Positions 2,416-32,588 of a DNA stretch of 32,588 nucleotides are shown here, piece after piece. The notes beneath the pieces are model-generated. The model did not search any database, was not told where the DNA came from, and worked only from the letters and a program-made list of their open reading frames with translations. Source of the stretch: a virus; the IMG/VR virus record IMGVR_UViG_3300028364_000095, positions 1-32,588 of that record. One strand, written 5' to 3'. Made by a program: the position numbers and the translations under genes. The number at the start of each line of letters is the position of its first letter. Positions within the stretch are counted from its first letter, which is position 1.

Positions 2416-3315
2416 ATGGCAAATTTAATTATACCTACATCAGGGATATTGACATTTAGTTTTGTAGCTGATAAATTTAATTCTGCACAAGATCTTGATG
2501 CAATGTTCAATGCAAGTAGACCTGCAAGTATTCCTGCTGGTACTAAAGCAGTATTTCCTGATGATTTTTATGGGGTTGCATACCTTGGATTCTCTTCTTT
2601 AAGCGAATCAGTTGGTAATGGATCAGGATTCATAGACTATATCATGGTGGTTAATAGGGCATGGACTGTGACAAGTAATGCAGCTTGGTTGACCTTGAAC
2701 AAAGCATCAGGAGCAGGTGGTAATACAACTCTTAGGGCAACTTATACAGGCAATATAGGAGCAGTCAGAACAGCTACAATAACATTAACAGCAGGTGGTG
2801 AATCTGTCACAACCACAGTATCACAAGCAGCAGTTACTGCTGCACCATTTATCATACTTAGTGAGAACGGAGTTGGTTTTAATGATGCTGCAAGAAGTTT
2901 CAATGTGGGAGTAGATTCCAATACAAGCTGGACTGTATCAGATAATGCCAGTTGGATAAGTGTTAGTCCTACCAGTGGTACTAATGATGGCACTATTACA
3001 GTGACATTACAGGCCAATACAACTACTTCTGAAAGAGGTGGTACGGTAACTGTTAGTGGTGCAGGACAAAGTGATTCGTTCAGTGTAGCTCAATCAGGTG
3101 GAACTGCGCCTATGGTCACTTATTACAGATTAAACCAATGTGGTAGCGGTGGAACATTCTACACAACGGTTACGGGTACTGCCAGTGGAAGAGCAATCAG
3201 TCCAGATACTGGAACTTATTATACATACACAGGTACTAGTATAACACAGAGTACGCCACCAACTGGTAATCTTAATAACATACAGGTAATATTCGGACAA
3301 TTCGGATGTCCTTAA
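2416..3315 (+). CDS. Virion-associated adhesin with two BACON-type Ig-like domains
   Basis: A 299-aa protein. The N-terminal ~55 residues (LIIPTSGILTFSFVADKF...) form a short attachment-like region. Residues ~56-137 and ~146-227 are two similar beta-sandwich repeats. Each carries the BACON signature of a 'W(T/L)VxSxxxW(I/L)' core (W83/W91 and W162/W170), a 'SGxGxxTxxxT' stretch, and a terminal strand ending VTTTVSQAA or SFSVAQSGG. BACON domains are characteristic of Bacteroidota proteins and their phages (for example crAss-like phages), where mucin or glycan binding has been proposed. The Cys-containing C-terminus (QCGSGGTFYTTV...) is a third small unit. The stop overlaps the region upstream of the endolysin start. 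Likely role: attachment to surface glycans. Confidence 0.75.
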   Translation: MANLIIPTSGILTFSFVADKFNSAQDLDAMFNASRPASIPAGTKAVFPDDFYGVAYLGFSSLSESVGNGSGFIDYIMVVNRAWTVTSNAAWLTLNKASGAGGNTTLRATYTGNIGAVRTATITLTAGGESVTTTVSQAAVTAAPFIILSENGVGFNDAARSFNVGVDSNTSWTVSDNASWISVSPTSGTNDGTITVTLQANTTTSERGGTVTVSGAGQSDSFSVAQSGGTAPMVTYYRLNQCGSGGTFYTTVTGTASGRAISPDTGTYYTYTGTSITQSTPPTGNLNNIQVIFGQFGCP

Positions 3316-6904: not shown

Positions 6905-8047
6905 ATGGCAAATACATTTTCAAAAACAGTATCGGGTAGTATATATCCAGCGTATAATGATAGTTACGTAGAGTTTTCCGTATCATCGAGTACCGCACCT
7001 GTAAGTGCGGAGATAATAATATTACCTGAAAGTATATTTCCTAATAGTTTTTTCATATTCCCTGATAAGGACGGTAAATATCTATTCAACTACAAGGATG
7101 CTGCAAAAGCAATATTCGAGCAGTTCCCGTTCAAGGACGAGAACGGTGCAGTGATCACTACGGAGTGGGGTCAAAGTATAACCGGTTCGTTCACGACATT
7201 ATCGACCACCATACTTACGACGAACGCACCACCTACCGGTTCTACTATACCACAAGCTTTTAGTACGGCGTACGAATTCGAGTTTTACCGAAGTGTCAAA
7301 CAAGTAGGGGAACAGATATATACCAACAATGCACAGATAAACAACTATTCCACCAATGGGACGGATTACAACCTAACATACTTCGAGGGATATCCATTCT
7401 CGTTCGAGTTACATAAACTGACACATTCGACATCCAAGAATATAAAGGTAAAGAATCTAAATAGTGGTGGAACATCCGCGGCCATATCTACACAGTTCAC
7501 GGGAGCTTTCAGGATAATAGTGGACAAGGTGGGAACAAATTGGACTACATCTACCTTCCTTCCGTTATCCGATACTATAAATAGATTGGAAATATTGGAG
7601 GATGATGTTTTCAAGACTAACCTAAGATTAAAGAAAGTACCATCTACATCAGGGGTATACCTAAAGTGGTTCAATAATGATGGTGGATACTCGTTCCACT
7701 TGTTCGACAAGTTCTATCGTTATAATCTAACCGCAAGATCGATCGGTAATGTAAGTAGTAATACCTATCCGAACGTGGGTTCATATGGTGTAGGTGAAAA
7801 ATCCATCGGAAAATCAGGTGGAGTAAGTTATAGATTAAACGCTACGATAGATGATAATGAATCGGAAGTACTTAAATCACTTTTCACATCACCAATGGTA
7901 CAGATGTATTCATCACATAGACCATTCGTATCCGGTGAGTGGTTGGATGTGACACTCAACTCGAATTATTCACTTAATACCAAGAACGAAAAAAACGAAA
8001 TAAGTGTAACCATAGATCTTCCAGATCTTATAACACCGACTCTATAA
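6905..8047 (+). CDS. Tail structural protein (unknown family)
   Basis: A 380-aa beta-rich protein starting one base after the previous stop and overlapping the next start by one base (TAATG). It begins ANTFSKTVSGSIYPAYNDSY and contains many Ser/Thr/Tyr/Asn strands, with TITGSFTTLST-like stretches, no membrane segment and no catalytic motif. The pair formed with the 637-aa protein that follows, directly upstream of the tape measure gene, suggests a baseplate hub, distal tail or tube component. I do not recognise a specific family. Confidence 0.55.
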   Translation: MANTFSKTVSGSIYPAYNDSYVEFSVSSSTAPVSAEIIILPESIFPNSFFIFPDKDGKYLFNYKDAAKAIFEQFPFKDENGAVITTEWGQSITGSFTTLSTTILTTNAPPTGSTIPQAFSTAYEFEFYRSVKQVGEQIYTNNAQINNYSTNGTDYNLTYFEGYPFSFELHKLTHSTSKNIKVKNLNSGGTSAAISTQFTGAFRIIVDKVGTNWTTSTFLPLSDTINRLEILEDDVFKTNLRLKKVPSTSGVYLKWFNNDGGYSFHLFDKFYRYNLTARSIGNVSSNTYPNVGSYGVGEKSIGKSGGVSYRLNATIDDNESEVLKSLFTSPMVQMYSSHRPFVSGEWLDVTLNSNYSLNTKNEKNEISVTIDLPDLITPTL

Positions 8048-12794: not shown

Positions 12795-13121
12795 AGACAG
12801 ATAAATAAACCCCACAGCCATATAAAAGAACAGCAAAAAAAGATAAAATTGCCCACAGACAGATAAATAACCAGCAAAAAGGATAAATAAACAGCAAAAA
12901 GGATAAAATTGCCCCACCAGACATATAAAATTGACCAAAGACAGATAAATAAACAGCAAAAAGGATAAAATTGCCCCACCAGACATATAAAATTGACCAA
13001 AGACAGATAAATAAACAGCAAAAAGGATAAAATTGCCCCACCAGACATATAAAATTGACCAAAGACAGATAAATAAACAGCAAAAAGGATAAAATTGCCC
13101 CACCAGACATATAAAATTGCT
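12795..13121. repeat. 62-bp tandem repeat array with degenerate upstream copies
   Basis: Perfect 62-bp units begin at 12891, 12953, 13015 and 13077 (the last cut off after 45 bases at 13121). Each unit starts ACAGCAAAAAGGATAAAATT, continues with GCCCCACCAGACATATAAAA and ends AGACAGATAAATAA. Shorter imperfect copies (CAGATAAATAACCAGCAAAA etc.) fill 12795-12890. The identity of the units points to recent expansion by slippage or unequal recombination. The units contain A-tracts and no spacers, so it is not a CRISPR array. Confidence 0.9.
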
Positions 13122-14420: not shown

Positions 14421-14447
14421 TTTGTTTTTTTGTTTGTTTGTTACGAC

Positions 14448-14509
14448 TATAAATATAAAATAGAAATTTCAAACATTGATTTTCACGGCATTATTTTCAA
14501 TTATTTTTT
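14448..14509 (-). promoter_or_regulatory. Leftward Bacteroidota-type promoter, copy 1 (small-gene operon)
   Basis: Read leftward, TTG (14500-14498) is followed after exactly 20 bases by AATGTTTG (14477-14470), one base off the TAnnTTTG -7 consensus of Bacteroidota promoters (TTG - about 20 - TAnnTTTG). The whole ~61-bp segment, including downstream AAATTTCTATTTTATATTTA, is repeated at 19374-19434 with only one length difference in a T run. Conservation outside the two boxes suggests further bound factors or a recent duplication. Confidence 0.65.
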
Positions 14510-14574: not shown

Positions 14575-15060
14575 TCAGCCATCATGTGAATAAGAAAAGA
14601 ACTCATTTAATTTAAGTTCCTGATTAGTACTGTATGGTGGACTTCCATCGAACCTGTAATGATATCGTAAGGAATCAGCACATACTATGTTATTGTCCAA
14701 TATTGCCAATATTTCCTTTGTTGGGTTCGGCCCTGCTAATCTTTCTTTACAAAGTTTTACGTTATCTTCCATTAATTCTACACCGTATGTAGTTGAAAGG
14801 GCTTGTTCCAATGTACAACCACTTAATTCCATTTTTCTAATTACCACTTCTGAAAGGAACTGCCCGTCACCAGAAGATGGGTCTAGGAACTTCTTGGATA
14901 TATCCTTGAATAGTTCATGACCTAGTTCGTCCAGCATTTGTTGTACAAGTTCCGTTGGCGTGAAAACTTCGGATGTTTGTTTAACACGAAGCTTGTCACG
15001 CTCAATACCGCTCATGTATTCACGGTTTCTAGTATGTTCTATGTATTTAGATAATTTCAT
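14575..15060 (-). CDS. SAM-binding half of a split adenine-specific DNA methyltransferase
   Basis: A 161-aa protein holding only the N-terminal motifs of a gamma-type N6-adenine methyltransferase: motif X EVFTPTELVQQML (31-43), motif I FLDPSSGDGQFL (58-69), motif II GVELMEDN (93-100) and motif III NIVCADSL (114-121). It ends soon after, where intact enzymes reach NPPY. An SPPY at 130-133 could be a decayed motif IV, but lacks the usual hydrophobic strand before it. It would bind S-adenosylmethionine and need a partner for base binding and recognition. The five genes transcribed ahead of it supply that missing half. Its start lies inside the end of the preceding gene (14-base overlap), so it is translated last and coupled. 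Part of its 5' end is duplicated at 15856-15942. Split arrangement is seen; the complex is inferred. Confidence 0.8.
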   Translation of the reverse strand: MKLSKYIEHTRNREYMSGIERDKLRVKQTSEVFTPTELVQQMLDELGHELFKDISKKFLDPSSGDGQFLSEVVIRKMELSGCTLEQALSTTYGVELMEDNVKLCKERLAGPNPTKEILAILDNNIVCADSLRYHYRFDGSPPYSTNQELKLNEFFSYSHDG

Positions 15061-15856
15061 CTGGTATAATTATTTTAGAAAAAAGTGATTTGGAATTCGT
15101 ACATGATACACGTAGTTCATTGAGTTCAGTTAGTATATCGAATTCCAGCATCCATTTTTTTAATTTTATGGCGGATTCTAATGAATCGGTGGCTAAACCA
15201 ACAATACTACGGGTTATTGAATATTCCGGACCTGCTATTTTTATAGCTCGGCCCCCACCCTTATATGGAACTAAGACTTTCCATTTACCGATTAATGTCG
15301 ATTCGGATTCATCATATTGCCAATTAAATTCATCGGTTTTATAACTTCCTAATGATTCTATGGTTTTATATTTTCCAGTATTATTTAATCCACCCATCAA
15401 CCTAGTACCATTGTACCATATATCACCCAAAGTTTTAGTGTTTGGATCCATTAAAAAGGATTTCTCAATATTCTTGGATATAACAAGATTTTTTTGTTTA
15501 AGTAATCTGATACTCTGTGGTTCTGTATTTGATTTATATTCAAATGAGTCAGACTTCTTTGTTGAATCGCCTACCACGTGACACGTACGTATTTGATTAC
15601 TTATATCAAATATTGGTTTATCATGATAGACCATTTTTATGAAGTTATCATTTAAAATTATATTATTTTTAAATGCATTTGTTTCAAAGTTCGCCCTTAA
15701 TATATAAGTAAACTTACCATTCTTGGTTAAGTTTGATATTAATTTAATGAAATCATCACCTATATTCTTACTTCTTCCTCTATTTTTATAGCTTGTATCA
15801 TCATTTATAGTAAACGGTATGTTTCCCACTACGATAAAATCGTCATTATTTTCCAT
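15047..15856 (-). CDS. Catalytic/target-recognition half of split methyltransferase, module 5 (GNIPF type)
   Basis: A 269-aa protein that starts MENNDDFIVVGNIPFTIN, so motif IV (NIPF in place of NPPY) is at about residues 12-15. Motif VI-like FTYILRANF and motif VIII-like FDISNQIRTCHVV follow, then a target-recognition-like half with GKWKVLVPYKGGGRAIKIAG. It lacks motifs X, I, II and III entirely. It is clearly paralogous to the 15929-16738 protein, strongest in KWKVLVP(Y/R)KGGGRA(I/V)KIAG. NIPF/NIPY/NLPY forms are known from rRNA adenine dimethylases, so activity is still plausible. Its start shares TAATG with the stop of a 28-codon remnant of the SAM-half gene. Its end IIPDEII overlaps the start of the SAM-half gene. 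Confidence 0.75.
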   Translation of the reverse strand: MENNDDFIVVGNIPFTINDDTSYKNRGRSKNIGDDFIKLISNLTKNGKFTYILRANFETNAFKNNIILNDNFIKMVYHDKPIFDISNQIRTCHVVGDSTKKSDSFEYKSNTEPQSIRLLKQKNLVISKNIEKSFLMDPNTKTLGDIWYNGTRLMGGLNNTGKYKTIESLGSYKTDEFNWQYDESESTLIGKWKVLVPYKGGGRAIKIAGPEYSITRSIVGLATDSLESAIKLKKWMLEFDILTELNELRVSCTNSKSLFSKIIIPDEII

Positions 15857-15942
15857 TAGATATTTTTTACATTTTTTATTATTATAATACCACTCATGTA
15901 TTCACGGTTTCTACTATGTTCTATATATTTAGATAATTCCAT
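15856..15942 (-). pseudogene. 28-codon remnant of the SAM-half methyltransferase gene
   Basis: Starting at 15942, MELSKYIEHSRNREYMSGI repeats the first 19 residues of the 161-aa SAM-half (MKLSKYIEHTRNREYMSGI), with the DNA also nearly identical, then diverges into IIIKNVKNI and a stop. It begins inside the end of the 15929-16738 gene, exactly as the intact SAM-half begins inside the end of the 15047-15856 gene. This shows that the SAM-half once followed module 4 directly and that module 5 was later inserted or duplicated with this junction. The stop overlaps the next ATG (TAATG), so it could still pass ribosomes on. Confidence 0.85.
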
Positions 15943-16738
15943 CGGGTAGTGGTATATATGAAAATAATGTTTTAGTATTAGTCCCTGATGTTCTGATTTT
16001 GTTTAAGTAATCACATATATTTTCAGTTACAAACCAATCATGGAATTTTATTGCACTCGATTCCTTATCGAATTCAAATGCAATTATACTAAAGCATATA
16101 GAAAATTCAGGCCCAGCAATTTTAACTGCCCTACCCCCCCCTTTTCGTGGGACAAGTACTTTCCATTTACCAATTGAAGTATTTTCTTTACTATCGTAAG
16201 ACCATTGAAATTCACTCGTTTTATAACTGCCCAATGATGTAATTACTTTGTATTTACCATTATTTGATATTTGATTCAAATATCTAAATCCGTTATTCCA
16301 TATATCAGCTAGTGTTGGTTTATCAACATCAAGGGTAATGGTAGATTCAATATCCTTCGATAATACAAATTTTGCATTACGATTTAATAAAACTAATTCT
16401 TTTGAGTTATTTACGTTATACTCAAATGTGTCAGTTATGTTGTTAGAATCCAACACAACATGACATGTGCGTATAAATGATGATATATCGAATATAGGCT
16501 TGGTGTGATGTACTATCTTTTTCAAATATGGGTTCAATATCAATTCTCGCTTGAAAACGGTACGAGTATATTGTGCAGGTAAAATATAACAAGCCTGTCC
16601 TTTTTTTGATAATTTATTAATTAACGTAATGAACGAATCACCAATTCGAGTTGATCCACCACTACCAATGTCTAAATTATTTCCTTCGTTTTTATTTATA
16701 GTAAACGGTATGTTTCCTACTACTACATCAAATTTCAT
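15929..16738 (-). CDS. Catalytic/target-recognition half of split methyltransferase, module 4 (GNIPF type)
   Basis: A 269-aa protein beginning MKFDVVVGNIPFTINKNEGN: motif IV at residues 9-12 directly after the start codon and one beta strand. ACYILPAQYTRTVFK (motif VI region) and FDISSFIRTCHVVLD (motif VIII region) follow, then a recognition domain with WKVLVPRKGGGRAVKIAG. It has no SAM-binding motifs of its own. Closest relative is module 5; the two differ most around residues 20-35 and in the central third. It ends IPLPDGII, with the stop overlapping the remnant of the SAM-half gene. A 12-base gap separates it from module 3 upstream. Confidence 0.78.
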   Translation of the reverse strand: MKFDVVVGNIPFTINKNEGNNLDIGSGGSTRIGDSFITLINKLSKKGQACYILPAQYTRTVFKRELILNPYLKKIVHHTKPIFDISSFIRTCHVVLDSNNITDTFEYNVNNSKELVLLNRNAKFVLSKDIESTITLDVDKPTLADIWNNGFRYLNQISNNGKYKVITSLGSYKTSEFQWSYDSKENTSIGKWKVLVPRKGGGRAVKIAGPEFSICFSIIAFEFDKESSAIKFHDWFVTENICDYLNKIRTSGTNTKTLFSYIPLPDGII

Positions 16739-16750
16739 ATTTTTATTTAT

Positions 16751-17566
16751 TTAACATATGAATTCTTTCCAAAAGTCTTTTTTGAAACCCAACATCACTT
16801 TATATTCAAATGAAAAACCCGCCCATTTACAATTAGATACAAATTGTCTAAATTTATCAGTATTAACTGCCTTGATGATATTATCACCTTCCAATTCAGT
16901 AGTTACTTCTATAGCAAAACAATTATTAGTGACACCATATTTACCCTCTCTATCAAATATTGCATTTTCAGGTGAGGCCTTACCGAAAATTATTTTTTTA
17001 ATCCCAAAGTGGCCGTTGTTTTTCGATGAATATAATAACTTTGGTATACCATTAGCAGGTGTACTATGGATACATGGTAACATATGAGTATCATCTGAAA
17101 CCATAGACATCCAATTTTTATCATTACCATACATACTACGAGAATGTAATATTTTTATAGTATTAGCAGATTTAGTAGTAATATTTTTCAGAAAATCCAT
17201 ATGAGTATTAAATACGTACTCAGCTGATTTTAAGTCGATAAATTCAGTATGACCTAGTTCATCTACTACTTCGGTTTTTATATCACTAATTGAATTTCGA
17301 ACGGTATACCAGTCGTATCTAGTACTAACACCGAATATAGATTTCCCATCAATTGCATTATGAATTTCCAGATACACCATATCAAATCCCTTTAATAGTT
17401 CTAATATATTGTGATTGGGTTTTCTCCATGCACTGGGATGTACTAATGACATATATCCATTTGGTTTTAATATACCCAATGTTATTTTTACAAATTGTTG
17501 CCAAAGTGGATTATTTTTATTATCACTTTGATATGGCGGGTTTCCCACTACTACATCAAATTTCAT
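16751..17566 (-). CDS. Catalytic/target-recognition half of split methyltransferase, module 3 (GNPPY)
   Basis: A 271-aa protein that begins MKFDVVVGNPPYQSDNKNN. Motif IV NPPY is at 9-12, which in gamma adenine methyltransferases binds the flipped adenine. GYMSLVHPSAWRKP is motif VI and IFGVSTRYDWYTVRN motif VIII. The C-terminal part (KWAGFSFEYKVMLGFKKDFW) resembles recognition-domain ends of Eco57I-type enzymes. Length is about half of a complete enzyme and motifs X and I-III are missing. The first 26 bases of the gene are identical to those of module 1. Likely works with the 161-aa SAM-half to methylate a specific DNA site. Confidence 0.8.
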   Translation of the reverse strand: MKFDVVVGNPPYQSDNKNNPLWQQFVKITLGILKPNGYMSLVHPSAWRKPNHNILELLKGFDMVYLEIHNAIDGKSIFGVSTRYDWYTVRNSISDIKTEVVDELGHTEFIDLKSAEYVFNTHMDFLKNITTKSANTIKILHSRSMYGNDKNWMSMVSDDTHMLPCIHSTPANGIPKLLYSSKNNGHFGIKKIIFGKASPENAIFDREGKYGVTNNCFAIEVTTELEGDNIIKAVNTDKFRQFVSNCKWAGFSFEYKVMLGFKKDFWKEFIC

Positions 17567-17574
17567 ATTTTTAA

Positions 17575-18462
17575 TTATTTAACATTATCTTCAATATACT
17601 GTATTTCTTCTTCTGTTAGATTGAAATAATTATAAAGCTTCATTTCGGAATCACATAACATTAATTCTTTTGAAAATTTAGGTAACCTAGAAAAGGGGCC
17701 GGTATTAAAACCTCCTGTTTTGTTTGAAGTAACGACAAATCTATATAATTTAGATTTCAATATAAATTCGATCATACTCGCTTCTTCTTTACTATTTGTA
17801 TAGATTCCTACTACATTACGGCCGGGAATAGAACTCAATGTTTTATATATATAATCTTTCTTTGGTGAAAAGTATGTACCTGACATATTTACAATCACCT
17901 TCCATCCATTATAATTAGATACAGACTCTGGCTTATAGTAGAGTAATTGGCTACCTGTATGTACAACTTCGGTAGTGTATATATTATCTCTCATTAAACT
18001 ACATTTTCCCACTTCAATATCTTTACTCTTATATGATAAGAAATTTTTAGTTTCTATTTTTTCACTAAAACCATATACTTTTTTACTTATAGTTGACTGT
18101 AAATCAGTATTAGTATAAGTTCGTATATTTATTGTTGTATGATCCAACTCATCTTGTATAGTAGTGCTTCCCTTATAATTATTTTTTGATAATAAAAACC
18201 AACCTATATTCTCACCCACCGAACTAAAATACTTATTTACATTTTTATTTATATAAATCAAATTTTGATTCAGTAACAATTCATTTGCACGTGCTAGATC
18301 GGGGCCCATTCCTCGCAACCATGATATTGGTGTCACCAATCCCAAATAACCATTTTCACTAAGTAATGATATTGATTTTTCTATAAAAGAGGGCCATAAT
18401 TTATTGGATTTATTGTTATTGGATTGGTATGGTGGATTACCCAATACTACATCAAATTTCAT
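17575..18462 (-). CDS. Catalytic/target-recognition half of split methyltransferase, module 2 (GNPPY)
   Basis: A 295-aa protein starting MKFDVVLGNPPYQSNNNKSN (motif IV at 9-12), with GYLGLVTPISWLRG (motif VI) and FSSVGENIGWFLLSK (motif VIII). The C-terminus has the usual recognition-domain end of Eco57I-like methylases: FILKSKLYRFVV, then FSRLPKF and LYNYFNLTEEEIQYIEDNV. SAM-binding motifs are absent. It is 8 bases from module 3 and 14 from module 1. The central region differs from the other modules, as expected if each recognises a different sequence. Confidence 0.8.
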   Translation of the reverse strand: MKFDVVLGNPPYQSNNNKSNKLWPSFIEKSISLLSENGYLGLVTPISWLRGMGPDLARANELLLNQNLIYINKNVNKYFSSVGENIGWFLLSKNNYKGSTTIQDELDHTTINIRTYTNTDLQSTISKKVYGFSEKIETKNFLSYKSKDIEVGKCSLMRDNIYTTEVVHTGSQLLYYKPESVSNYNGWKVIVNMSGTYFSPKKDYIYKTLSSIPGRNVVGIYTNSKEEASMIEFILKSKLYRFVVTSNKTGGFNTGPFSRLPKFSKELMLCDSEMKLYNYFNLTEEEIQYIEDNVK

Positions 18463-18476
18463 AGTTTTTATTATTA

Positions 18477-19349
18477 TTATATCCTTTTAAAATCATGTTC
18501 ATACAAATCCCCTATGTATTGATTTATAAAATTCTGTTCCGTTTCATTAATATCAAAGTGCTTGAATAACTTTTTATCATCCCAATTTTCGGAAAAATCC
18601 ATATATGGTACTGATTTTAATTCACCTCGATGTACTGTTTGGTTTATTTTATATATCGAGAGACAGAATCTTGCAAATTTAGTTTTGACAAAGTTGAATA
18701 GATTGTATGATTCGTTTACAGTATTTACACCGATGTAATTATACCCATTCTCGAAATCTGAAAAAATGATATTATCGATACAATGTTGATCTTGACAATA
18801 TATCAATTGAAAGAAGTCAGGATTTACTTTACTAAGAATCGGTATATGACCGGAAATACTTACTAACTTTACATAAATTTTAGATTTCTTGTCGTTCTTC
18901 TTTCGGTAGTTCATATCCTCGAACGATATATTCATTCTACTAAAAATTTTATCCCTAATACTTAGTACAATATCATTACCGTGCATGAATACGTCGTCAA
19001 GTGTAGTATATTGTTTTACTTCATTGTCATTAACGTGTGAATATATTACATCTATAGTTTTATCTTTTATTTTGGTTACTGTCGTTATACTAAGTGGTAT
19101 AAAAAAACCAGCATTAAAAAGTTTATTTCCATCTACAAATTTCAACATTGATCTATATTCCGAAATAATATTCTTTATTCTTTTGGTCTTAACATTATCT
19201 TTAGTTGGTTTTCTATTAATGAATGGTGTACTTGGGTGAATATGAATCATAATACCACCATCAGTAAGATACTCGAACGCGTTGTTAATAATATCGATGT
19301 GCAATCCTTGTTTATACGGTGGGTTTCCCACTACTACATCAAATTTCAT
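18477..19349 (-). CDS. Catalytic/target-recognition half of split methyltransferase, module 1 (GNPPY), first gene of the operon
   Basis: A 290-aa protein starting MKFDVVVGNPPYKQGLHIDI (motif IV at 9-12). GIMIHIHPSTPFIN corresponds to motif VI and AGFFIPLSITTVTK to motif VIII. The recognition part ends with VKTKFARFCLSIYKINQTVH, a GELKSVPYMDFS segment and LFKHFDINETEQNFINQYI, the pattern that closes many Eco57I-type proteins. Motifs X and I-III are missing. It is the most upstream gene of the leftward methyltransferase operon and follows the promoter copy at 19374-19434. Confidence 0.8.
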   Translation of the reverse strand: MKFDVVVGNPPYKQGLHIDIINNAFEYLTDGGIMIHIHPSTPFINRKPTKDNVKTKRIKNIISEYRSMLKFVDGNKLFNAGFFIPLSITTVTKIKDKTIDVIYSHVNDNEVKQYTTLDDVFMHGNDIVLSIRDKIFSRMNISFEDMNYRKKNDKKSKIYVKLVSISGHIPILSKVNPDFFQLIYCQDQHCIDNIIFSDFENGYNYIGVNTVNESYNLFNFVKTKFARFCLSIYKINQTVHRGELKSVPYMDFSENWDDKKLFKHFDINETEQNFINQYIGDLYEHDFKRI

Positions 19350-19373
19350 ATTTTTTAATTCGAGTGTTACAAG

Positions 19374-19434
19374 TATAAATATAAAATAGAAATTTCAAAC
19401 ATTGATTTTCACGGCATTATTTTCAATTATTTTT
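19374..19434 (-). promoter_or_regulatory. Leftward Bacteroidota-type promoter, copy 2 (methyltransferase operon)
   Basis: Read leftward, TTG (19426-19424), 20 bases, then AATGTTTG (19403-19396). The segment is the twin of 14448-14509. It lies 47 bases upstream of the first methyltransferase start codon. Identity with copy 1 implies that the methyltransferase and small-gene operons are expressed together, probably early. Confidence 0.65.
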
Positions 19435-19834: not shown

Positions 19835-20104
19835 ATGACTTACCTAAGTAAAGAAGATTTCCACTCAAAGTTGGAAGAAGATTATAATAATCTGGATATG
19901 GAAACTGATATGATACCAATAATAGATGAATGTTATGATATGGCTGAAAAAAACAAAGGACATAATATACCTTATACCAATGTTGTAATTAAAATCATTG
20001 AAGGAATAAAGAATCGTGGATCTAGAAAATGTACGTTCAACCAATGGAAATGTATTTCAAAATATCAGAAAGTAAATAATAAGTTCAAAAAAATAAAATT
20101 ATGA
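19835..20104 (+). CDS. 89-aa hypothetical early protein
   Basis: A soluble helical protein (MTYLSKEDFHSKLEEDYNNL, then MIPIIDECYDMAEKNKGH and a Lys-rich end CTFNQWKCISKYQKVNNKF). No motif is recognised. It is the first gene of the rightward early operon, has an AAATT-rich leader and overlaps the next start by four bases (ATGA). The basic tail might contact DNA. Confidence 0.6.
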   Translation: MTYLSKEDFHSKLEEDYNNLDMETDMIPIIDECYDMAEKNKGHNIPYTNVVIKIIEGIKNRGSRKCTFNQWKCISKYQKVNNKFKKIKL

Positions 20105-20313
20105 GTAAAGAAGTAAATGCATTCGAGAAGTATCATGATGATAGACGTGAATTTTTAAATTATTTATTATGTTGGTTTGAGTTACATAGAACTGATATGT
20201 TAGAAGATGAATCCAACTTAGTTGGCGATTATATAGTATTATATCCATGGAACACGGATAATGATAAGAAAAAAGTTAATCGTGTTATCAATAAAGTAGA
20301 AAAGAGATCGTAA
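20101..20313 (+). CDS. 70-aa hypothetical early protein
   Basis: A small acidic N-terminal/basic C-terminal protein: MSKEVNAFEKYHDDRREFLN, then YLLCWFELHRTDML and a DNDKKKVNRVINKVEKRS end. Starts in the ATGA overlap with the previous stop and ends with the TAATG overlap of the polymerase-like gene, so the three are translationally coupled. No family recognised; it may be an accessory of the downstream protein. Confidence 0.6.
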   Translation: MSKEVNAFEKYHDDRREFLNYLLCWFELHRTDMLEDESNLVGDYIVLYPWNTDNDKKKVNRVINKVEKRS

Positions 20314-21569
20314 TGGATAAGTTCGCTATTACACATAAAGATGCTGCATTGATATATAATCATATTCAATCTAAGAAACGATCACCAAAAAATCAATTCC
20401 TTAAACGTATCAAGGTTATGGACTGGATCAATAAAAAAGTTAGTAAGACTGATAGTGGTATAATAGCTATCCATCAGCATAACTTAGCTAAGAAACTGGG
20501 TATAGGAGTTGCTCAAATTAATAGTATAATAAATGAATTAGCATTTAATCTACATATTATACAAAAAGAACACGTACATATCGCTGGTATAACTTCTTGT
20601 GGTTATTCTACTATAAACAAATGGGATACTGGTGAATATATTCACGTGCACTGTCCTGTCAATGCTTTAGATAATATTTCTACATTTCTGCAGAATGATA
20701 ATGATAATGAATTTGTTAATCAATATCTTTCTAATATGGATAAGATATACATTCCTTATTTTATAAAATCCTCTAATGATTTCTATACTGCAATATTACT
20801 TGATAATTCTACTGGATTGCCAGTTGCAAATTATATATCTTATATACCTTATGATTCCGATAAGGAATTAGACATAGTAAACGAACCAGTAGAACTGTAT
20901 AATATACCAGTAAAAGAACAAAGAAAATGGATAAACAATTTAGGTATAATAACCCAGCCAAATAAAGATAATCGAGTGTACCAGATATTGACACAGACAA
21001 GTTCAGTATATAGAAGAAACTTCAAATGGAAGCATGACAATGAATTACTTGACTTATTACAAACCGATATGAAGTCTGCACAAGTAGTCCTATCATATCA
21101 TAAATTCAGAATGGAAACAAAACAAGAAGAACCATTCATAAAAGAACATATAGACAATGGTACGGTATATAAAGTTATGATGGAAATATTGGAGAAGACT
21201 GATAGGGATGAATTCAAAAAGGAATTATTCAAAGACTTTCTATTCGCTGGACATTGGTGGATGAGTAGAAAAAAGAATATGATATCACAAATGATTAAAG
21301 ATATGTATCCAAACTATTGGAAATGGGTATATCAAACAAAGAAAAAAACAAGTAGTAGTGAGTTTTCACATATGATTACAAGATTGGAGTGGAAGTTCAT
21401 ACGTAACACGCTCAAGGAATTGTATGGGGAAGGTGTACCGTGTGTTTCACTACACGATAGTATAATATACCCTGAAAGTATAGACCCCCTTTATATCGAA
21501 GAAAAACTAAACGTGGTAGCCAGAAGAACATTCGGCTCAATCATACCTATAAAATCATCAAACCTATAA
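20313..21569 (+). CDS. Palm-domain (family A polymerase-like) protein with N-terminal winged-helix-like region; putative replication protein
   Basis: 418 aa. Residues ~48-80 (DSGIIAIHQHNLAKKLGIGV...) look like a helix-turn-helix. Three spaced motifs recall the palm of family A DNA/T7-type RNA polymerases: motif A LLQTDMKSAQVVLSYH (Asp 252), motif B RDEFKKELFKDFLFAG (Arg 298, Lys 302, Gly 313; R-x3-K followed by aromatic-x-G) and motif C VSLHDSI (His 381, Asp 382). An YRRNFKWKHDNEL stretch precedes motif A, like the 'RxxxxxTxLxxELR..L' lead-in of uncharacterised Bacteroidota phage/plasmid proteins. There is no exonuclease, helicase or full thumb domain; at 418 aa it is much shorter than Pol I-type enzymes. 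No other replication gene is seen in the window, which makes it the best candidate. The function is inference. Confidence 0.5.
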   Translation: MDKFAITHKDAALIYNHIQSKKRSPKNQFLKRIKVMDWINKKVSKTDSGIIAIHQHNLAKKLGIGVAQINSIINELAFNLHIIQKEHVHIAGITSCGYSTINKWDTGEYIHVHCPVNALDNISTFLQNDNDNEFVNQYLSNMDKIYIPYFIKSSNDFYTAILLDNSTGLPVANYISYIPYDSDKELDIVNEPVELYNIPVKEQRKWINNLGIITQPNKDNRVYQILTQTSSVYRRNFKWKHDNELLDLLQTDMKSAQVVLSYHKFRMETKQEEPFIKEHIDNGTVYKVMMEILEKTDRDEFKKELFKDFLFAGHWWMSRKKNMISQMIKDMYPNYWKWVYQTKKKTSSSEFSHMITRLEWKFIRNTLKELYGEGVPCVSLHDSIIYPESIDPLYIEEKLNVVARRTFGSIIPIKSSNL

Positions 21570-22856: not shown

Positions 22857-23405
22857 ATGACAAAAATTAAAGAAGTATGGAAAGATGTTCCACAGTACAA
22901 AGAAGCATATCAAGTATCCAGTCTTGGAAACGTAAGATCTTTGGATAGAATAGTATATACTAAAAAGGGTTCAAGAAAATTAATAGGGAAAAATCTAAGT
23001 ACATCAAAGTTGCCGAACGGATATATGCAAGTAGGAATATCCTATGATGGTGTAACAAAAAACTACTATACACATCAATTGGTAATGATGGCTTTCAAGG
23101 GATTCGAACCTAATGGTAAATTTTTAATTGTAGATCATATAGATTCGGACAAGACTAACAATAACATTGAGAACCTACAACTAATTACCCACCGCGAGAA
23201 CCTATCCAAGGACAAACGTAATTCAGGAAGATACAGTAGTGAATATGTAGGTGTAAGTTGGAACAAGAAAATAAAGAAGTGGGTATCGTATATCCAGCTG
23301 GATGGTAAGATAAACTACTTGGGTTCTTTCCTTGATGAGCTTGAAGCACATTTAACTTACCAGTTCGAATTATATCACTACAAATCAATGAACAATAAAT
23401 TTTAA
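22857..23405 (+). CDS. Free-standing homing endonuclease (NUMOD4-HNH with AP2-like end)
   Basis: 182 aa. NUMOD4-type N-terminus EVWKDVPQYKEAYQVSSLGN then VRSLDR (6-30). HNH core: HQLVMMAF (His 73), IVDHIDSDKTNNNIENLQLI and THREN (Asp 93-His 94, Asn 106, Asn 115). AP2-like strand set at the C-terminus: SEYVGVSWNKKIKKWVSYIQ followed by YLGSF. This order is standard for phage HNH homing endonucleases that cut intronless alleles and spread their own gene. It has its own AT-rich upstream region and A-rich leader (22731-22856), as such mobile genes usually do. No interrupted host gene or intron is apparent. Confidence 0.88.
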   Translation: MTKIKEVWKDVPQYKEAYQVSSLGNVRSLDRIVYTKKGSRKLIGKNLSTSKLPNGYMQVGISYDGVTKNYYTHQLVMMAFKGFEPNGKFLIVDHIDSDKTNNNIENLQLITHRENLSKDKRNSGRYSSEYVGVSWNKKIKKWVSYIQLDGKINYLGSFLDELEAHLTYQFELYHYKSMNNKF

Positions 23406-23642: not shown

Positions 23643-24110
23643 ATGACCGAATATTTACCACTTATATATAAAATCAGTAATAAATTTCCTAAAAAGTATC
23701 GTAATGATCTGGTACAGGAAATGTTTATAAAAATGCATGATATAAAAAATGGTTATGATATTGAAAAAGGAACGTTCGTAACGTACCTCTACAAGAACTT
23801 ATATTATCATTCCTTACATTATGTACAGAATAACAAAATAATCCATCAGTCGTTGGATGAGTGGGTTACAGATGATTGTAATGATGAAAGAAGGAAGTCG
23901 GATTTACTTGAAAGCACTGTAAACGAGGAACTACGATTCGAACACCGCGATTATTTGGAACAGAACGATAAAAGATTTACAATAGAAGAACTGTTCATAC
24001 GTGAAAAATATTACGAGTTGGATTTATCGGTACGAATGATAATAGATCTATATTCACCATATCACGGATTTACATCACCTACTACAATATACAAAATATT
24101 AAATAAATGA
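23643..24110 (+). CDS. Sigma-70 region 2-like transcription factor
   Basis: 155 aa. Residues ~20-62 match sigma region 2: RNDLVQEMFIKMHDI, then YDIEKGTFVTYLYKNLYYHS, the equivalent of 'DLxQExFxxxxxxxxxxxFdxekGxFxTyLyxixxN'. The rest is acidic and ends in a helix-turn-helix-like stretch (LDLSVRMIIDLYSPYHGFTS PTTIYKILN, in two parts) that could be a degenerate region 4. It is encoded just upstream of the late operon and overlaps by four bases (ATGA) with a second HTH protein. Likely role: directing host RNA polymerase to late promoters. Region 2 similarity is good; target promoters are unknown. Confidence 0.65.
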   Translation: MTEYLPLIYKISNKFPKKYRNDLVQEMFIKMHDIKNGYDIEKGTFVTYLYKNLYYHSLHYVQNNKIIHQSLDEWVTDDCNDERRKSDLLESTVNEELRFEHRDYLEQNDKRFTIEELFIREKYYELDLSVRMIIDLYSPYHGFTSPTTIYKILNK

Positions 24111-24340
24111 CATTATACAAATACCTTACTTCATCCACGGTAAACCCAATATTAATAGAGTTGGTACGAAACCGCATCACGAGTTCCACGAACGTAATCA
24201 AGGAACTAAAAATATTCGAGGATTACCTAGAACTTACCGGAAGGGAAATGGATAAGTGGAAATCATTATCCATCAGACATAATTTATCGGAGTCTACGGT
24301 CAAAAGAATATTGAAGAAAATGAAATCACGTATAAAGTAG
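24107..24340 (+). CDS. Small HTH protein, sigma region 4-like partner
   Basis: 77 aa. The C-terminal half (EMDKWKSLSIRHNLSESTVK then RILKKMKSRIK) is a helix-turn-helix typical of sigma region 4 or small regulators. The N-terminal half is helical (VNPILIELVRNRITS). The ATG overlaps the stop of the region 2-like gene, so both are made in equal amounts, and together they would contain the two core DNA-contacting parts of a sigma factor. It could also be an independent regulator. Followed by a clear terminator. Confidence 0.6.
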   Translation: MTLYKYLTSSTVNPILIELVRNRITSSTNVIKELKIFEDYLELTGREMDKWKSLSIRHNLSESTVKRILKKMKSRIK

Positions 24341-29333: not shown

Positions 29334-29642
29334 ATGAGTATAGCAAAATTAGATTTAACACAGGATAGTGAACTAACCATCCATATAGAACGTGGAGTCG
29401 TGTATGCTCCAAGTATTAGTGGTTTTACTACACTTGATACAGGATATACCCTGGTATTGAATAACATCACGTATACGGTAGGTAATGGGCTATCCTTAGT
29501 GGACACACAAACATTAAAGTCAATAGTATGGGCATTGGATGGTGGTGATTACCAAGTAGGTATTTACAGAGGAAATATAATATCCGACTCCAGAACTGCT
29601 GGTACTTATCTTAATATACAAATCGTGTTAATCGTAGAATAA
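29334..29642 (+). CDS. 102-aa beta-rich protein preceding the large tail fibre
   Basis: MSIAKLDLTQDSELTIHIER, then YAPSISGFTTLDTGYTLVL and WALDGGDYQVGIYRGNIISD. It looks like a small beta-sandwich, and 'GDYxVGIYRGxxxSDSRTAG' suggests a structural role. It is joined to the fibre gene by TAATG, so it may form the fibre's attachment unit or a capsid/fibre adaptor. No family recognised. Confidence 0.55.
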   Translation: MSIAKLDLTQDSELTIHIERGVVYAPSISGFTTLDTGYTLVLNNITYTVGNGLSLVDTQTLKSIVWALDGGDYQVGIYRGNIISDSRTAGTYLNIQIVLIVE

Positions 29643-32588
29643 TGATAACAGTAAAATCTAACATTCCGGAACAAACATTGACCGTAAACGGCGGTGGTGC
29701 AAAATCAGTACAACTAAACGTCAAGGATAACTTGAACGATTTACAGATTTTACAGTATCCTAATGTAGATATTACCGTAGGAGTAGGTGACACCACCGAA
29801 CTAAACAATTTTACCTCATCCATTCAATTGGAAGTGGACTCATTGACTAGTGTGACGGGTTCATACCTGACAACTTTACCAAGTGGAACAGTATCGGGTT
29901 CAGTTCAAATAACCAACGGAAGTACTTTACTTAGTGGTAGTAAAACAGATATTAGTTCATTAAACACATTCACAAGTAGTATACAGACAGAAGTAGATGG
30001 TATAAGTTCAGCTACAAGTTCATATCTAACAACTTTACCAAATGGAACAGTTAGTGGAAGTACTCAAATAACCAATGCTTCAACCATATTATCAGGTTCA
30101 AAAACTAACATTACATCACTTAATAACTTTACAAGTAGTATACAAACAGAAGTAAATGGATTGAGTAGTGTGACTGGTTCATATTTAACTACTTTACCAA
30201 ATAACTTAGTTAGTGGAAGTTCACAACTTACGGGTTCATATGATGTAAGATACCAATTAAGTGGTAGTGCTGGAGGAGCGGATTGGAATGTCAATCTTGA
30301 TAATATCCCTGTCGGAATAATTAGTGGTAGTACACAAATAACCAACGGCTCAACTATTTTAAGTGGTAGTAAAACTAATATTACTTCGTTAAATAATTTC
30401 ACTTCATCTATACAGAACGAGGTGGATTCATTGACTAGTGTGACTGGTTCATATTTAACTACTTTACCTAGTAATTTAATAAGTGGTTCATCCCAACTCA
30501 CCGGATCATATGATGTAAGATACCAATTAAGTGGTAGTGCTGGTGCAGGAGGAGCGGATTGGAATGTCAACCTTGATAATATTCCATCAGGAATAATTAG
30601 TGGAAGTTCACAAATAACCAATGGTTCAACTATATTATCAGGTTCAAAAACTAACATTACATCACTTAATAATTTCACAAGTTCAATTCAATCAGAAGTA
30701 GATGGTATAAGTAGTGTGACTGGTTCATATCTAACTACTTTACCAAGTGGAACGGTTAGTGGTAGTACTCAAATAACCAATGGCTCAACTATTTTAAGTG
30801 GAAGTAAAACTAACATTACTTCGTTAAATAACTTCACAAGTTCAATTCAAACAGAAGTAAATGGATTGAGTAGTGTGACTGGTTCATATCTAACCACTTT
30901 ACCAAGTGGAACAGTTAGTGGCAGTACTCAAATAACCAACGGTTCAACAATATTATCAGGTTCAAAAACTAATATCACACATCTAAACACATTCACTTCA
31001 TCTATACAGACAGAAGTAGATGGTATAAGTTCAGTTACTTCATCATATTTAACTACTTTACCAAATAACTTAGTTAGTGGTAGTACTCAAATAACCAACG
31101 GCTCAACTATTTTAAGTGGAAGTAAAACTAATATTACTTCGTTAAATAATTTCACAAGTTCAATTCAATCAGAAGTAGATGGTATAAGTAGTGTGACGGG
31201 TTCATACCTGACAACTTTACCAAGTGGAACAGTATCGGGTTCAGTTCAAATAACCAACGGTTCAACAATATTATCAGGTTCAAAAACTAATATTACTTCG
31301 TTAAATAATTTTACAAGTAGTATTCAAACAGAAGTGAATGGATTGAGTTCTGTAACTTCATCATATATAACTACTTTACCAAGTGGAACAGTTAGTGGTA
31401 GTACTCAAATAACTAATGGTTCAACCATATTATCGGGTTCAAAAACTAACATTACATCACTTAATAACTTTACAAGTTCAATTCAATCAGAAGTTGATGG
31501 ATTGAGTGCGGCTACTTCATCTTACCTGACAACTTTACCAAGTGGAACAGTTAGTGGAAGTACTCAAATAACCAATGGAAGTACTTTACTTAGTGGAAGT
31601 AAAACTAATATCACATCACTTAATAACTTTACAAGTAGTATTCAATCAGAAGTTGATGGTATAACTAGTGTGACGGGTTCATACCTGACAACTTTACCTA
31701 CGGGTACAGTTAGTGGTAGTACACAAATAACTAATGGCTCAACTATTTTAAGTGGTAGTAAAACAGATATTACATCACTTAATAATTTTACAAGTAGTAT
31801 TCAAACAGAAGTGAATGGATTGAGTGCGGCTACTTCCTCGTATGTGACTACCGACACCGATACAACGTACACAGCAGGTACCGGTTTAGAATTGACAGGT
31901 ACTGTATTTTCACAGACACCACGTACCATCAACGGAACAACTTATAACGGTTCATCGAACATTACTACTGCTAACTGGGGTACATCAAGAAATATATCTA
32001 TTGGTGGAACTTCCAAATCTGTCAACGGTTCAGGTAATGTTACTTGGACAGCCGCTGAAATTGGAATTACAAAGTCGGCAATCGATGCATTGAACATTGA
32101 TGCCGATACATTGGATAGTTTAAATTCAACACAGTTCCTACGTAGTGATCAAAGTGATACTATAAACGGTAATCTTACCGTTACTGGTACGATAACCGCA
32201 GGAGGTATGATAACTGGTACAGGTACAATACCGTTCAATTCACTAGGTACAGGTTTAAGTTCAAATAATACGGCACGGAATTTCATGATTGCAAGAGATA
32301 GTGCAAATACACTTCTTTGGTACATAGGAATGACATCTACTAGCAACAACGATGTAATCATAAACAACTATGACGGAGGTGCTTTCCTAAAAATAAGGGA
32401 TGGTGGTCAAGAAAATGGACTGGAATATTACAACGGTTCATCTACCAGAACTGTATGGCACTCTGGTAATGATGGTAGTTTATTAAACACTAGTAGTACA
32501 TCCCAAAGTAAATTGGGAGCATTAGGGGTAAAATCCCTTCAATCAGATTGGGTACTAACGGGAGGTAATCAAAGCAATGCAAACACAG
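29642..32588 (+). CDS. Large repeat-rich tail fibre, N-terminal part (runs off the right edge)
   Basis: 982 codons are open from the TAATG at 29642 to the edge with no stop. N-terminus MITVKSNIPEQTLTVNGGGA (about 60 residues) is the probable particle-binding part. About twelve repeats of roughly 53 residues follow (see the repeat entry), each with an IQ(T/S)EVDG helix and a VSGSTQITNGSTILSGSKTN strand part. After residue ~735 come different modules: TYTAGTGLELTG, then INGTTYNGSSNITT, ADTLDSLNSTQFLRSDQSD and LWYIGMTSTSNNDVIINNYD. The last visible residues, ending QSNANT, sit in the same type of sequence that opens the window (GRNMAIYKVFGG). The S74 chaperone at the left edge is what such a fibre needs. 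Therefore I infer one gene of about 1260 codons. Confidence 0.85.
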   Translation, partial: MITVKSNIPEQTLTVNGGGAKSVQLNVKDNLNDLQILQYPNVDITVGVGDTTELNNFTSSIQLEVDSLTSVTGSYLTTLPSGTVSGSVQITNGSTLLSGSKTDISSLNTFTSSIQTEVDGISSATSSYLTTLPNGTVSGSTQITNASTILSGSKTNITSLNNFTSSIQTEVNGLSSVTGSYLTTLPNNLVSGSSQLTGSYDVRYQLSGSAGGADWNVNLDNIPVGIISGSTQITNGSTILSGSKTNITSLNNFTSSIQNEVDSLTSVTGSYLTTLPSNLISGSSQLTGSYDVRYQLSGSAGAGGADWNVNLDNIPSGIISGSSQITNGSTILSGSKTNITSLNNFTSSIQSEVDGISSVTGSYLTTLPSGTVSGSTQITNGSTILSGSKTNITSLNNFTSSIQTEVNGLSSVTGSYLTTLPSGTVSGSTQITNGSTILSGSKTNITHLNTFTSSIQTEVDGISSVTSSYLTTLPNNLVSGSTQITNGSTILSGSKTNITSLNNFTSSIQSEVDGISSVTGSYLTTLPSGTVSGSVQITNGSTILSGSKTNITSLNNFTSSIQTEVNGLSSVTSSYITTLPSGTVSGSTQITNGSTILSGSKTNITSLNNFTSSIQSEVDGLSAATSSYLTTLPSGTVSGSTQITNGSTLLSGSKTNITSLNNFTSSIQSEVDGITSVTGSYLTTLPTGTVSGSTQITNGSTILSGSKTDITSLNNFTSSIQTEVNGLSAATSSYVTTDTDTTYTAGTGLELTGTVFSQTPRTINGTTYNGSSNITTANWGTSRNISIGGTSKSVNGSGNVTWTAAEIGITKSAIDALNIDADTLDSLNSTQFLRSDQSDTINGNLTVTGTITAGGMITGTGTIPFNSLGTGLSSNNTARNFMIARDSANTLLWYIGMTSTSNNDVIINNYDGGAFLKIRDGGQENGLEYYNGSSTRTVWHSGNDGSLLNTSSTSQSKLGALGVKSLQSDWVLTGGNQSNANT
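29813..31830 (+). repeat. About twelve internal repeats in the large tail fibre gene
   Basis: Units are usually 153-162 bp and start with an ACAAGTAGTAT or ACTTCATCTAT variant (Thr-Ser-Ser-Ile-Gln), at about 29813, 29970, 30133, 30400, 30677, 30838, 30993, 31153, 31311, 31473, 31631 and 31791. Two units (near 30133 and 30400) are longer through an insert with LTGSYDVRYQLSGSA and GGADWNVNLDNIP. DNA identity is high, with many synonymous swaps between AGT and TCA serine codons. Such arrays set fibre length and change by recombination. Confidence 0.85.

Follow-up and report, generated by a model that had tools for sequence, protein, structure and literature searches.

Gene layout at the P0001 locus

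The window, i.e. the whole 32,588-nt stretch of viral DNA analysed here, contains a rightward run of genes in which the plus-strand ORF at 20313–21569 encodes a 418-aa protein, P0001. The initial annotation had read a palm-domain protein from this ORF, naming D252, R298, K302, G313, H381 and D382 as its motif residues, and the ORF and all six residues were found at these positions. The features of the locus are as follows, with residue conservation counted in a 125-sequence alignment of P0001 and 124 relatives.

19835–20104, plus strand: small ORF (89 aa) upstream of P0001 in the same gene run; no Pfam hit
20101–20313, plus strand: small ORF (70 aa); no Pfam hit; its stop codon overlaps the P0001 start codon (TAATG)
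20313–21569, plus strand: P0001 (418 aa), divergent TV-Pol-type (Transposon-Virus polymerase) family-A polymerase, from profile and fold matches
20445–20642, plus strand: HTH-like N-terminal segment (residues ~45–110), from profile alignment and a weak CtsR HTH match; putative role in DNA binding
20973–20975, plus strand: R221, beta-hairpin arginine ahead of motif A (the family 'GR' motif), a feature described in PMC2579912; 124/124 relatives
21066–21083, plus strand: motif A, D252-MKSA-Q257, family consensus DIKNSQ; D252 in 123/124 and Q257 in 121/124 relatives
21204–21218, plus strand: fingers motif B, R298xxxK302; K302 in 124/124 relatives, R or K at position 298 in 122/124
21453–21461, plus strand: motif C, H381-D382-S383; D382 in 124/124 and H381 in 118/124 relatives

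The neighbouring ORFs (89, 70 and 58 aa) are helical-looking and gave no Pfam hit where scanned, and no OB-fold candidate was found adjoining P0001. As first described, the protein is compact and has no exonuclease, no such domain being found in its 418 aa with Pfam, PHROG or NCBIfam profiles.

Membership of the TV-Pol family

In direct searches, the best PHROG match of P0001 had an E-value of 0.74, Pfam returned only a sub-threshold match to the CtsR HTH (residues 35–74, E = 0.059) and NCBIfam no family. Searching phage (50,697 records) and plasmid sequences with tblastn gave no relative, and PDB sequences one meaningless match. A single identical copy of P0001 was present in the viral collection, on a 13.6-kb contig (L002).

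The motif string read in P0001 was R..T......R...., D.k..Q, G..Y, RxxxK and HDSI. The family was reached via a hand-written consensus of related proteins, which served as a query only, all later results being based on real sequences. This consensus matched five huge-phage ORFs encoding 387–424 aa, as well as three proteins annotated as hypothetical in Aeromonas, Klebsiella and Vibrio phages. Using the five huge-phage proteins as queries yielded 80 viral loci, and a further 38 family loci were detected in bacterial genomes, predominantly of Bacteroidota, with a minority from Planctomycetota, Verrucomicrobiota and Ignavibacteria. The family was present in 16 genomes out of 395 sampled from the phylum to which Flavobacterium salilacus belongs. 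Thirteen matches occurred on three contigs of Rufibacter latericius (G003; C6, C11 and C14), several of them partial or with stops, perhaps the remnants of a mobile element that is degenerating in many copies.

Profiles built from family members found P0001 at E-values far below those of 1000 composition-matched shuffles per profile: 8.2e-13 for viral relatives (best shuffle 0.077), 1.8e-21 for viral and cellular relatives (best shuffle 0.007) and 1.3e-28 for Bacteroidota proteins only, gathered in a subsequent search of genomes (best shuffle 0.041). With the Bacteroidota profile, P0001 was the sole scoring protein among all window ORFs, and the cellular profile aligned residues 24–389. Pairwise, tblastn linked P0001 to viral relatives at 3e-8 (among candidate stretches), and blastp against a relative gave 31% identity over 167 aa. 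The tree branch of P0001 was very long and grouped with that of L159; this was flagged by the tree program as a long-branch join, hence no conclusion is drawn from the tree. Profile–profile comparison with the T7, SP6 and N4 polymerases, for which the templates were shallow, was not significant, with the aligned motifs in register, and a search of PDB sequences with the family profile found no polymerase.

The TV-Pols were described by Iyer, Abhiman and Aravind in 2008 as proteins of 400–600 aa with a hairpin arginine that is conserved without exception, a pair of aspartates in the palm, an RxxxK motif within an HTH-like module of the fingers and no nuclease, whose palm and fingers are related to superfamily A and T7-like RNA polymerases (PMC2579912). 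They occur in Bacteroidetes, planctomycetes and verrucomicrobia, and also in phages and mobile elements; some subsets are associated with D5 helicases and others with resolvases, integrases and transposases, and one form has an extra N-terminal domain without a helicase (PMC2579912). The family set assembled here corresponds to theirs in its motifs, architecture and host groups. P0001 belongs to the TV-Pols as a very divergent member. It shares their size range and nuclease-free architecture, with the hairpin arginine (R221), the aspartates of the RRM-fold palm (D252 and D382) and R298xxxK302 all present and no fused nuclease, whereas the hallmarks of a classical Pol I or T7 DNA polymerase were not detected (no 3'–5' exonuclease, no PF00476 match). 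The initial suggestion of an uncharacterised family is therefore unsupported, the family having been described in silico since 2008 (PMC2579912). Unlike typical TV-Pols, P0001 is far more divergent and is the only recognisable replication enzyme of a small tailed phage.

Conserved and altered residues

Five positions, R221, Y286, K302, E359 and D382, are invariant in the 124 relatives. Conservation of D252, R298, K302, H381 and D382 across the 125-sequence alignment places these motif residues, as initially picked out, above chance. This does not extend to G313, which had been taken as the motif-B glycine: the glycine column of the family falls on A312 of P0001, and G313 lies one residue further on. 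P0001 also deviates from its family at N255 (S in P0001), S256 (A), P258 (V) and Q356 (T); its motif A reads DMKSAQV vs. DIKNSQP in the family.

By register, we take Q257, five residues past D252, to be the steric-gate position, which is occupied by E710 in Pol I and G542 in T7 RNA polymerase. As Q257 is bulky, this register argument suggests that the use of dNTPs is favoured.

Predicted fold

An AlphaFold model of P0001, built with 63 aligned sequences, had a pLDDT near 80 over residues ~270–410 and <50 for most of the N-terminal half, including the region ahead of the hairpin where the two-helix thumb module would be expected. For the whole model, family-A DNA polymerases and mitochondrial RNA polymerases were the top structural matches (Foldseek probability 0.98; VIA Z 11.5). 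A palm-only model (pLDDT 70) matched Pol I and T7 DNA polymerase with a Foldseek probability of 1.00 (VIA Z 10.7), and 50 of 50 among the VIA matches listed were of the same superfamily.

As the top structural matches are all to family-A DNA polymerases or mitochondrial RNA polymerases, the models indicate that P0001 contains a palm of the A type. The comparison of predicted folds proposed with the initial annotation thus bears out its family-A palm, which is present in the model and is also indicated by profile E-values from 8e-13 to 1e-28. On these models, structural resemblance does not separate a DNA from an RNA polymerase. The HTH-like N-terminus from the same annotation is plausible, given that the cellular profile aligns from residue 24 and that the sub-threshold CtsR match lies here, although this part of the model is of low confidence.

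Genome completeness and replication genes

Two other IMG/VR contigs (L101 and L102) run through both ends of the window and leave 115 bp between them. The window ends (32588/1) fall in one tail-fibre gene region and show no end repeats. The phage genome is ~32.7 kb and almost complete, with the whole non-structural region inside the window; the missing 115 bp lie inside the tail-fibre gene, hence the window is essentially the whole phage. A separate replicase encoded in a missing part of the genome, raised at the outset as an outcome that would count against P0001, cannot be hidden in a gap of this size. The tail-fibre-like protein (29642–32588) has many near-identical repeats (SGSTQITNGSTILSGSKTNITSLNNFTSSIQ...), which likely caused the assembly to break.

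Profile scans of the named window ORFs detected TerL, capsid, portal, Clp protease and lysozyme, together with HNH, endonuclease-VII-like and methyltransferase-like genes and a weak sigma-factor-like gene. Pfam, PHROG and NCBIfam profiles gave no hit among these ORFs to a helicase, a primase, an SSB, a clamp or a further polymerase. Walker A motifs were confined to TerL and, by chance, a single site within a structural gene. The earlier reading that the window has no helicase, primase or standard polymerase holds for these profiles and the Walker A scans. Pfam, PHROG and Walker A searches of the window likewise gave no COG3378/DUF927 helicase, and Pfam no recombinase.

Several other genes were observed in the window. 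The sigma-factor-like protein (23643–24110, plus strand; Pfam Sigma70_r2, E = 4e-4, below the cut-off) is followed by a small HTH-like ORF (24107–24340, plus strand), the pair looking like the two parts of a divided sigma factor, vs. an intact sigma factor in the prophage relative described below. A NUMOD4-HNH homing-type endonuclease is encoded at 22857–23405 (plus strand), with a similar gene near the TV-Pol of Flavobacterium salilacus, and a BACON-domain protein (2416–3315, plus strand) lies between the tail and lysis genes.

On the minus strand, the region 14575–19349 resembles a split N6-adenine methyltransferase array. A 161-aa ORF (14575–15060) possesses the SAM-binding motif FLDPSSGDGQ and no NPPY, and five genes of 269–295 aa start with FDVVVGNPPY or VVGNIPF and have no SAM-binding motif. 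From these motifs, it is possible that one SAM-binding half serves several interchangeable catalytic/recognition halves. The array is flanked by an 84-nt direct repeat (92% identical; 14425–14508 and 19351–19434), possibly a common regulatory sequence or a scar of cassette movement.

Intergenic 62-bp tandem repeats (4.8 copies, 93% matches) are present at 12822–13119, ~7 kb from P0001, and could be candidate iterons or an origin. The initial annotation had P0001 possibly acting at this repeat zone; we found no evidence for this, and nothing ties these repeats to P0001. GC skew follows gene orientation, hence is uninformative on the origin, and a promoter scan gave results not above shuffles.

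Related phages, prophage and bacterial loci

A prophage of Flavobacterium sedimenticola has structural genes collinear with those of the window (TerL 42%, portal 42%, Clp protease 37% and several others 30–44%) and encodes a TV-Pol in its non-structural region, adjoining the Clp protease. The TV-Pol gene lies at 7654–9063 of L258, in G399:C20. No helicase or DnaG/AEP primase was detected among the prophage proteins scanned, and Walker A was found only in TerL, plus a chance site in a recombinase. The prophage also encodes a Y-family (UmuC-like) polymerase, and Pfam-confirmed serine recombinases lie near its TV-Pol. A TV-Pol also lies beside TerL on a viral contig of 30.5 kb whose capsid gene is related. 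Cellulophaga phage phi46:1 shares the structural module of the window (TerL 52%, portal 35%, Clp 37%); no TV-Pol was found in this phage, which encodes a VapE primase-helicase and a helicase. The VapE-type enzyme is unrelated to P0001 and has its own helicase, and it sits in the equivalent non-structural module of a phage that shares these structural genes.

This pattern of gene content suggests that the phage group of P0001 has a TV-Pol in place of the VapE-type module. No BLAST link was found between P0001 and the TV-Pols of the prophage and related phages, which are too divergent, hence inheritance of the locus by common descent is not distinguished from replacement with another TV-Pol. In two bacterial genomes, the TV-Pol adjoins a tyrosine-integrase-like or serine-recombinase-like gene, as judged from sequence.

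Comparison with other small polymerases

The A-family polymerase CcPol of SCCmec, the closest precedent from experiment, is a proven DNA primase once bound to the SSB-like protein MP (PMC7581432), and PolA-SSB primases are paired with a helicase (PMC10061031). As with P0001, these are small A-family polymerases encoded by mobile elements with no active exonuclease (PMC7581432, PMC10061031). CcPol differs in that it requires its OB-fold partner MP and pairs with a COG3378 helicase, neither of which was found for P0001, and in that its Pol domain closely resembles bacterial Pol I, which that of P0001 does not. The divPolA2 proteins of barbaviruses, for which an RNA polymerase function has been suggested, are analogous minimal polymerases of tailed phages: like P0001, they lack an exonuclease and join their palm domain to a new type of N-terminal domain. 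Their phages, unlike that of P0001, additionally encode a regular PolB (PMC11348598). The divPolA2 example AUR84708 was not matched by the TV-Pol profile.

P0001 is also similar in size and motif order to gp16 of phage N4, and no significant profile match was obtained to the single gp16 sequence. The N4 enzyme, RNA polymerase II, is a two-subunit RNA polymerase formed by gp15 and gp16, the latter of 404 aa.

Proposed role in replication

P0001 is the only recognisable DNA-copying enzyme in the genome and probably the replication enzyme of the phage. The initial annotation as "replicative polymerase or primase" stands as regards a compact protein with a family-A palm that is a probable replication enzyme; sequence alone does not tell primase, DNA polymerase and RNA polymerase activities apart. 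In our preferred reading, which we put at a probability of roughly 0.6, P0001 as a TV-Pol would initiate phage DNA synthesis as a primase-polymerase and rely on the replisome of its host. Such an activity was already predicted for TV-Pols when they were first described (PMC2579912). The N-terminal HTH-like region may hold or position a single-stranded or melted origin, at which the palm would make a short DNA strand de novo by two-metal chemistry at D252/D382. The host helicase and DNA polymerase III would then take over synthesis, which we propose because the phage has no recognisable helicase, clamp or SSB. P0001 would thereby fill the role held by the VapE-type primase-helicase in phi46:1. 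Against a primase-polymerase are the changes in P0001 at the family residues N255, S256, P258 and Q356. The analogy with known enzymes also argues against priming by P0001 alone, as CcPol needs its MP partner and PolA-SSB primases are helicase-paired, with the helicase absent here. It seems unlikely that this one 418-aa protein recognises the origin through an N-terminal HTH, primes de novo and makes the first strand for a whole tailed phage with no helicase or SSB of its own, as a helicase-free TV-Pol initiator common to a group of small Bacteroidota phages.

P0001 might instead be a small single-subunit RNA polymerase, acting in the transcription of phage genes or supplying the origin with an RNA primer. 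Its model resembles mitochondrial RNA polymerase no less than Pol I, motif C has the HDS of T7 RNA polymerase in place of HDE, and gp16 of the N4 enzyme is of comparable size. Two relatives have weak matches to PF00940 (RNA_pol) and one a weak match to the RNA polymerase family phrog_2051, and divPolA2 has been suggested to be an RNA polymerase (PMC11348598). The steric gate argues otherwise, this position by register being Q in 121 of 124 relatives, where T7 RNA polymerase has a small glycine. Furthermore, the sigma-factor-like protein (23643–24110) suggests the phage uses host RNA polymerase, and a phage whose P0001 made RNA would keep no replication enzyme; we regard an RNA polymerase as rather unlikely.

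Alternatively, the gene may be cargo, the passenger of a mobile element not needed for replication, with host enzymes doing all the copying. Iyer et al. call TV-Pols mobile elements, one of them inside a cyanophage (PMC2579912), bacterial TV-Pols adjoin integrase- or recombinase-like genes as described above, and endonuclease VII/HNH-type genes lie 0.3–1.8 kb downstream of P0001. Such an origin sits poorly with a gene whose start codon overlaps the stop of the ORF before it within a rightward gene run, with the retention of a TV-Pol in the non-structural region of related small phages and with a window in which Pfam finds no recombinase; we consider cargo quite improbable. A catalytically dead palm protein acting only as an origin-binding initiator would account for the loss of near-invariant residues near motif A (N255, S256, P258) and for the very long tree branch. 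With the metal-binding aspartates, the hairpin arginine and RxxxK all kept, we give this reading very little credence.

Significance for phage replication

TV-Pols have been predicted primase-polymerases since 2008, and the only published assays found are for the loosely related CcPol-MP. New here is a very divergent TV-Pol in an unusually informative place, the family itself being known. As P0001 appears to be the sole DNA-copying enzyme of an almost complete genome, its phage is a good system for asking if a minimal enzyme starts phage DNA replication alone. The small phage and a sequenced Flavobacterium prophage with a common structural module make the prediction of a primase-polymerase open to both genetics and biochemistry. 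Testing it would show the minimum that a tailed phage encodes to start its own DNA replication, and would help to tie many "hypothetical protein" genes of jumbo phages and Bacteroidota genomes to a function.
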